A stretch of 37,261 nt of DNA, taken from SAR86 cluster bacterium SAR86B. Lineage in GTDB: Bacteria; Pseudomonadota; Gammaproteobacteria; Magnimaribacterales; Magnimaribacteraceae. Each line of letters begins with the position of its first letter. The first letter of the stretch is position 1. Made by a program: the position numbers and the translations under genes. The notes beneath the pieces were generated by a model. The model searched no databases, was not told where the DNA came from, and saw only the letters and a program-made list of their open reading frames with translations. Below, piece after piece: positions 14,661 through 14,845 of the stretch. The DNA lies in NCBI GenBank assembly GCA_905182235.1, contig CAJJAM010000018.1, forward strand, positions 1 to 37,261. Direction: 5' to 3'.

Positions 14661-14689
14661 TTGACCGGCTATTGAGGCATATATATCCT
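14661..14689 (+). promoter_or_regulatory. Predicted sigma-70 promoter of the leuA leader
   Basis: TTGACC (14661-14666, five of six matches to TTGACA) is followed after exactly 17 bases by TATCCT (14684-14689, four of six matches to TATAAT). The expected transcription start, six to eight bases after the -10, is at about 14695-14697, on or next to the ATG of the leader peptide. This would make the leader reading frame leaderless, which agrees with the absence of a usable Shine-Dalgarno (the only GAGG, 14674-14677, is 19 bases from the ATG). Prediction only; no start-site data. Confidence 0.55.
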
Positions 14690-14696
14690 AGTATCA

Positions 14697-14765
14697 ATGA
14701 CCTTAGTCACGACCATAATATTAAGTTTACGACTTACTGACCCGGTCCTTGTTGTACAAGGATAG
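14697..14765 (+). CDS. Branched-chain-rich leader peptide of leuA (attenuator peptide)
   Basis: A 22-codon reading frame from ATG to TAG, 80 bases before leuA. By codon it has Leu at 3, 9, 11, 13 and 18, Val at 4, 17, 19 and 20, and Ile at 7 and 8, so 11 of 22 residues are branched-chain amino acids; four more are Thr (2, 5, 6, 14). Codons 17-20 read Val-Leu-Val-Val and fall in the 5' arm of a strong hairpin; the TAG falls in its 3' side. This is the layout of enterobacterial leu, ilv and thr leader peptides, where the ribosome stalls when charged tRNA is short. The peptide is unlikely to have a job of its own. It is new to me as a sequence; the amino-acid composition and position are the evidence. 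Confidence 0.72.
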   Translation: MTLVTTIILSLRLTDPVLVVQG

Positions 14766-14770
14766 CCGGG
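14741..14770 (+). promoter_or_regulatory. Attenuator-type hairpin overlapping the leader-peptide stop
   Basis: CCCGG (14741-14745) pairs with CCGGG (14766-14770), and TCCTTG (14746-14751) with CAAGGA (14757-14762), around a five-base loop; the three unpaired bases in the 3' side are exactly the leader TAG stop (14763-14765). With 11 base pairs, this is the strongest local stem in the leader. The 5' arm holds the Val-Leu-Val control codons, as in the 1:2 pause hairpin of classic attenuators. It is followed by pyrimidine-rich sequence but no run of T, so it does not look like an intrinsic terminator itself. Confidence 0.65.
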
Positions 14771-14782
14771 CTTATCTCTATC

Positions 14783-14801
14783 TGTTTAGCAACCCTAAAC
14801 A
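14783..14801 (+). promoter_or_regulatory. Second hairpin in the leuA leader
   Basis: TGTTTAG (14783-14789) can pair with CTAAACA (14795-14801) around CAACC, giving a seven-base-pair, mostly A-U stem. It may be part of an alternative fold with the upstream hairpin; GGATAG (14760-14765) could also pair with CTATCT (14778-14783), linking the two. No T-run follows. Weak evidence by itself. Confidence 0.35.
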
Positions 14802-14845
14802 TCATAACTGAATCACTAATATGGTAACCTTTTGAGGAAATTTCA

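Follow-up and report, generated by a model that had tools for sequence, protein, structure and literature searches.

Several described systems come close to the element reported here. The classical enterobacterial leu attenuator combines a leader peptide with Leu codons, upstream of the leu gene, with an intrinsic T-run terminator. The actinobacterial LEU element, as excerpted from Seliverstov et al. 2005 (PMC1262725), also places a Leu-codon leader frame before leuA, and other attenuator elements are missing; there, the run of Leu codons pairs with the Shine-Dalgarno sequence, and the structure closed in this way has a pseudoknot in its interior. In Streptomyces lividans, leuL1 is a leaderless, Leu-rich leader before leuA (peptide MRFGLLLLSCRGEGL, followed by a stop) with no typical Rho-independent terminator, according to the excerpt of PMC8079986. 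Leaderless attenuators are thus already known, since leaderless Leu leaders lacking a typical terminator have been described in Actinobacteria (excerpts of PMC8079986 and PMC1262725). Two further systems read other amino acids. In the mycobacterial leaderless cysteine attenuators (Canestrari et al. 2020, through a passage in PMC9031893), a leaderless short ORF gives codon-dependent control of downstream translation, and in rhizobial trpL (peTrpL; excerpt of PMC10117765) a leaderless leader frame begins with the AUG of the transcript, responds to tryptophan, and belongs to an attenuator that also yields a dual-function sRNA.

The window, by which we mean the whole 37,261-nucleotide stretch analysed, from SAR86 cluster bacterium SAR86B (on contig 18 of a 1.06 Mb genome that is 82.55% complete), holds an element of this kind before leuA. 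The element is real and conserved, and we consider it reasonably probable that the gene is under translational attenuation, with a leaderless leader peptide responding to leucine. leuA encodes a 2-isopropylmalate synthase (TIGR00970 / PRK03739 type), runs from 14846 to 16528 on the forward strand and starts with TTG; its probable Shine-Dalgarno, GAGG at 14834..14837 (+), is partly paired in the predicted fold. The next gene upstream is a divergent 135-aa ORF (14215-14622, reverse strand) with no Pfam match at E 0.001, behind which lies a GNAT acetyltransferase gene, a pair that may resemble holD-rimI. The first-pass annotation had placed a promoter so that the transcript would start on the leader ATG, and this promoter, of sigma-70 type, is in place on the forward strand (14661..14689), with TTGACC at 14661-14666, a 17-base spacer, TATCCT at 14684-14689 and seven bases before the ATG at 14697. 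In all 30 distinct leaders, the first T of TTGACC stands 35-37 bases from the leader start, in a search whose pattern itself allowed about 32-38. A promoter match alone is not above chance (3 in the 500-base region vs. 1.9 ± 1.5 expected), and in one leader, L085, the ATG is replaced by ATA. Judging from the promoter, the leader transcript probably starts on the leader AUG, which would make the leader frame leaderless.

Within the window's family, leuA is present in 33 of 35 genomes, and the upstream region was examined in 32, leaving out G010 (a partial match). The element precedes leuA in 31 of these 32, and the sole exception, L109 of genus g6, has probably lost the leader. Among 18 loci from sister families of the order, inspected by eye over roughly the last 200-250 bases before leuA, none has the element, and neither do seven contigs labelled SAR86 (L008-L012, L014, L015), some of which come from the same genomes. 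In L109, leuA sits close behind the divergent gene, as in the sister families. Ranked by LeuA similarity, most of the top eleven contigs carry the label SAR86 cluster, six of them among the first eight; the single best contig, L005, is labelled Flammeovirgaceae and is probably a mislabelled MAG. The leader set (alignment A1, with L112 and L113 left out) comprises 32 leaders, 30 of them distinct; three extra contigs contribute to it, of which L005 is new and L006 and L007 repeat L091 and L090.

The leader ORF itself (14697..14765, +) encodes MTLVTTIILSLRLTDPVLVVQG and then a stop and, as first annotated, has 22 codons with five Leu, four Val, two Ile and four Thr. For the frame statistics we used the 29 distinct 54-base leader starts of the family. 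That relatives might lack the short frame had been considered beforehand; they keep it, with zero indels in the first 54 alignment columns and frame 0 open over 18 codons in 29/29, against 0/29 and 6/29 for frames 1 and 2 (which run into 99 and 27 stops here) and 38% of shuffles. Codons 5-10 vary freely. Leu-13 is invariant in the 29 starts and is written CUG in 17, CUU in 11 and CUA in one, the amino acid being what is kept; Leu-3 is found in 27, Leu-11 in 22 and Val-4 in 28. The putative sensor codons Leu11-Arg12-Leu13 (TTA CGA CTT) lie at 14727..14735 (+). Arg-12 is CGA in 28 of the 29, and CGA makes up 5% of leuA Arg codons; the same CGA is also seen in several other proteobacterial leaders. 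Codon 4 is GTC, which accounts for 13% of leuA Val codons, in all 26 leaders that form the helix described below, and Val-4 belongs to the leader segment that can pair with the leuA start. The window's Ile codons, and its Val codons other than Val-4, show no conservation across the 29 starts, which points to a leucine sensor rather than a general branched-chain sensor. The first-pass annotation had proposed that leuA is controlled by ribosome stalling on a branched-chain leader peptide; the comparison supports a conserved frame, Leu-13 and a covarying hairpin (H2), and does not support the Val and Ile part of the proposal. The stop codon shifts in position, giving frames of 18-32 codons that end within H2 in some leaders and near a second hairpin, H3, in others. 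Taken as sequence comparison, these data support a leader frame that is placed for leaderless translation and is selected for its frame, for Leu-13 and usually for Leu-3 and Leu-11.

The leader region (14697-14860) has a folding z of -2.66. H2 (14741..14770, +), whose 3' side holds the stop codon of the window's leader, had been drawn earlier with UAG as the unpaired bases of that side; it is present in the minimum-energy fold with 12 pairs, with AUA unpaired instead, in an equivalent register. Across the alignment, 98.3% of H2 cells are paired and five pairs have changed on both sides, and 0 of 500 shuffles reach these values or the covariation score. Versions slid along the alignment fall to 24-54% of cells paired; additional pair types are no more numerous than in shuffles (157/500). 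By this covariation, H2 is a real hairpin. The small hairpin H3 (14783..14801, +) has a changing sequence and is seen in the predicted fold, with analogous hairpins in the folds of relatives. We dropped a further local hairpin, H1, in which UUAGUCG would pair with CGACUGA from codons 12-14: shuffles often do as well (315 of 500 for the share of paired cells, 94 of 500 for the covariation score), and of the 30 leaders 13 break pair 8-39 and 14 break pair 13-34.

H2 is conserved in sequence too, beyond its pairing, as might be expected if the RNA were bound by a protein or a small molecule and the short frame were only incidental or of secondary importance, which has been proposed for the LEU element. 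Mutations in the leuA leader of Streptomyces coelicolor that do not fit classical attenuation (excerpt of PMC1262725) would also suit such a binding site. We regard it as quite unlikely here, since the frame has no indels although codons 5-10 vary, the other two frames carry the many stops given above, and Leu-13 is kept as an amino acid across CUG, CUU and CUA. The element also has no Rfam match at gathering score, and Rfam otherwise returned two chance-level matches only (E 3.4), to unrelated families on the other strand.

For the output step, which the first-pass annotation had left open, our candidate is base pairing between the 5' end of the leader and the start codon of leuA. Beginning at this codon, leuA is complementary to nt 4-13 of the leader (UUGACUAAAAU). 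In the minimum-energy fold of the window's leader region, segment A (UUAGUCA, 14703..14709, +) forms seven pairs with segment C (UGACUAA, 14847..14853, +), which overlaps the UUG start codon. Of the 30 distinct leaders, 26 form this A:C helix in their minimum-energy fold with 7-13 pairs, seven in the window and 8-13 in the other 25; the 26 are 25 leaders from genera g1, g5 and g7, plus L005. The four distinct leaders from g2, g3 and g4 lack it, although two of them pair with the leuA start through other helices, so in these genera the element either survives without the helix or uses another pairing. Leader:leuA-start helices of at least eight pairs occur in 26 of 30 real folds vs. 106 of 600 control folds in which the leuA start was shuffled; 25 of these real cases are the A:C helix and one, in L110, is a different helix. 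A version of this test whose folding range cut the SAR86 helix, and which was replaced, gave at least six pairs in 7 of 30 SAR86 leaders vs. 173 of 600 controls, and in 18 of 50 non-SAR86 leaders vs. 95 of 500 controls. When the partner is slid by 1-3 columns, the paired cells of A:C fall from 91.3% to 22-52%.

The variation within the helix consists of single changes that keep a wobble pair (L086, L104) and of end mismatches in g1 and L088, with zero compensatory double changes among the 26 leaders. In the covariation check proposed earlier, H2 stands as covarying, and the score of the leader:leuA-start helix is not above shuffles, 359 of 500 of which reach it; the support for A:C is conservation plus complementarity. 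Conservation is concentrated at the 5' end, where nt 1-12 are identical in 23-26 of the 26 leaders, against 9-21 of 26 for nt 13-33. The spacing between the leader ATG and leuA ranges over 127-150, as an RNA pairing allows. A and C could instead be DNA operator half-sites for a repressor, being inverted repeats of which one adjoins the promoter, and we hold this to be very improbable: neither is palindromic, a distance of 127-150 fixes no helical phase, and both lie inside the predicted transcript and within reading frames. DNA looping was set aside on account of the same variable distance.

Constraint on the leuA side of the putative helix was assessed by codon uniformity in the leuA genes of 26 loci. 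There are 130 four-fold sites at which the amino acid is near-invariant, and codon 2 is alone among them in having an invariant third base; codon 3 is the sole invariant one among 10 Lys codons, and codon 4 is more constrained than any other of the 29 Ile codons. Codons 1-4, where C lies, are unusually constrained at silent sites. Of about 556 four-codon windows in leuA, only 2 reach the uniformity of the first, the first itself being one of them, and codons 1-6 form the most uniform six-codon window of the gene (1/554). The start of the divergent neighbour gene, taken as a control, is not uniform: 15 of its 123 four-codon windows match or exceed the first in uniformity (25 of 26 loci, with a rough choice of start). 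Codons 5 and 6 of leuA, beyond the A:C helix, are likewise very uniform, so something other than the helix may account for some of the constraint on the leuA start.

In the mechanism that we propose, transcription would start on the leader AUG, as the promoter suggests. With leucine plentiful, ribosomes would clear the leader, and the free 5' segment (nt 4-13) would pair with the leuA start, which would mask the start codon of leuA and at the same time crowd the AUG of the leader; inside the closed structure, H2, H3 and, in some folds, a Shine-Dalgarno hairpin would form. When Leu-tRNA is short, ribosomes would stall as Leu-13 (or Leu-11) and Leu-3 come into the A site. With Leu-13 there, the stalled ribosome would span about nt 19-50, with room for a second at the 5' end. 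Leu-3 and Leu-13 are ten codons apart, or 30 nt, which is about one ribosome, so a stalled ribosome and a follower queued upstream would together cover the 5' segment and keep leuA open; a second ribosome over this segment would mean derepression on leucine shortage. A lone ribosome at codon 13 leaves A free, and the model thus needs either a queued ribosome or a stall at codon 3. We infer the stalling, the queueing and the direction of control as parts of this model. In its most specific form, the first dozen bases of a leaderless mRNA would serve at once as start site, leucine sensor (Leu-3) and antisense lock, with one duplex silencing two start codons and stacked ribosomes, spaced by Leu-3 and Leu-13, opening it; we offer this version tentatively and think it somewhat doubtful.

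The leader peptide could also control transcription, with Rho or a cryptic terminator stopping the polymerase before leuA once the leader is cleared and a stalled ribosome preventing this. A conserved leader with Leu-13 and H2 would fit such control, rho is present in the window's genome, and Rho has been raised for terminator-less actinobacterial cys leaders (Seliverstov et al. 2005, PMC1262725, in excerpt). We judge it unlikely, as it leaves the conserved complementarity of leader codons 2-4 and leuA codons 1-4 unexplained, and as a T-run terminator, which the first-pass annotation had not seen either, occurs 0 times on either strand of 14500-15000.

Leucine leaders are also found before leuA outside the family. 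A strict search, for an ORF of 8-45 codons with a Leu cluster or L-x-L and an ATG or GTG 4-9 nt after a promoter, gave a candidate in 42 of 141 further loci (72 plus 69, the 72 including L014, L015 and ten labelled Actinomycetota) vs. 10 of 2,820 shuffled regions; this search misses leaders visible by eye (e.g., L018, L044) and passed 0 actinobacterial ones. Most of 14 proteobacterial leaders read by eye end in LRL or LLL, then T, I or L, then x and P, with a GC-rich hairpin of the CCCGG...CCGGG kind that usually has the stop in its loop. A joint alignment (A2) of 24 SAR86 leaders with 14 other proteobacterial ones misplaced the 3' arms of H2 and was excluded from the counts. Outside the family, where start sites are less certain, leader:start helices of at least seven pairs are not enriched (9 of 50 vs. 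84 of 500 shuffled). A duplex scan of 40 non-family leaders found some strong single cases (L017, L016, L051, L060, L032). In L017, labelled an alphaproteobacterium, the first eight bases of the predicted transcript pair with its leuA start, and the helix, read by eye because the scripted start position was off, reaches the AU of its AUG; in L016, Leu codons pair with the Shine-Dalgarno, as described for actinobacteria. Eight loci (L018, L020, L021, L027, L031, L037, L046, L047) have a second LRL motif between the first leader and leuA, which, where read by eye, lies within another short ORF with its own hairpin, giving tandem leucine leaders. A different Leu-rich frame, e.g., MKTAHTLILLRQHACLRLVSPRLRG, similar among four gammaproteobacterial loci of family f9 (L171, L172, L176, L181), is likewise placed before leuA for leaderless translation.

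Among the literature matches listed, in titles and the beginnings of abstracts, we found nothing on the SAR86 element, its proteobacterial spread or a 5'-end start-codon lock. Proteobacterial attenuators were reportedly surveyed by Vitreschak in 2004, and a proteobacterial leuA leader may be in print. If the model is true, the element would be a protein-free leucine sensor for streamlined, uncultured ocean bacteria, and 5'-end start-codon locks could be searched for in other leaderless leaders. It would also offer an answer to how terminator-less, leaderless leu leaders may act.

Compared with the known systems, the SAR86 element shares its Leu-codon leader peptide with the enterobacterial leu attenuator and differs from it in that the T-run terminator is not found. 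Like S. lividans leuL1, it is a Leu-codon leader before leuA for which no typical terminator is found and which may be translated leaderless; it differs in phylum and peptide (excerpt of PMC8079986). The mycobacterial attenuators differ in sensing cysteine, and the passage in PMC9031893 makes no mention of start-codon pairing by the 5' end; rhizobial trpL begins its frame on the transcript's AUG, as proposed for SAR86, and differs in its amino acid and its sRNA (excerpt of PMC10117765). It also resembles the LEU element as excerpted in PMC1262725, which also lacks a terminator and in which leader-coding sequence also pairs with the leuA initiation region to close a structure. The SAR86 leader differs in that its run of Leu codons is interrupted (L-R-L), its peptide follows LRL-T-x-P, its interior is predicted to hold simple hairpins, where a pseudoknot is described for the LEU element, and the predicted partner of the start codon region is codons 2-5 (26 of 30 leaders), instead of Leu codons pairing with the Shine-Dalgarno. 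What appears to be new is a leader 5' end complementary to the leuA start, which would work like the LEU element while pairing differently, and which links proteobacterial leuA leaders to that puzzling actinobacterial element.
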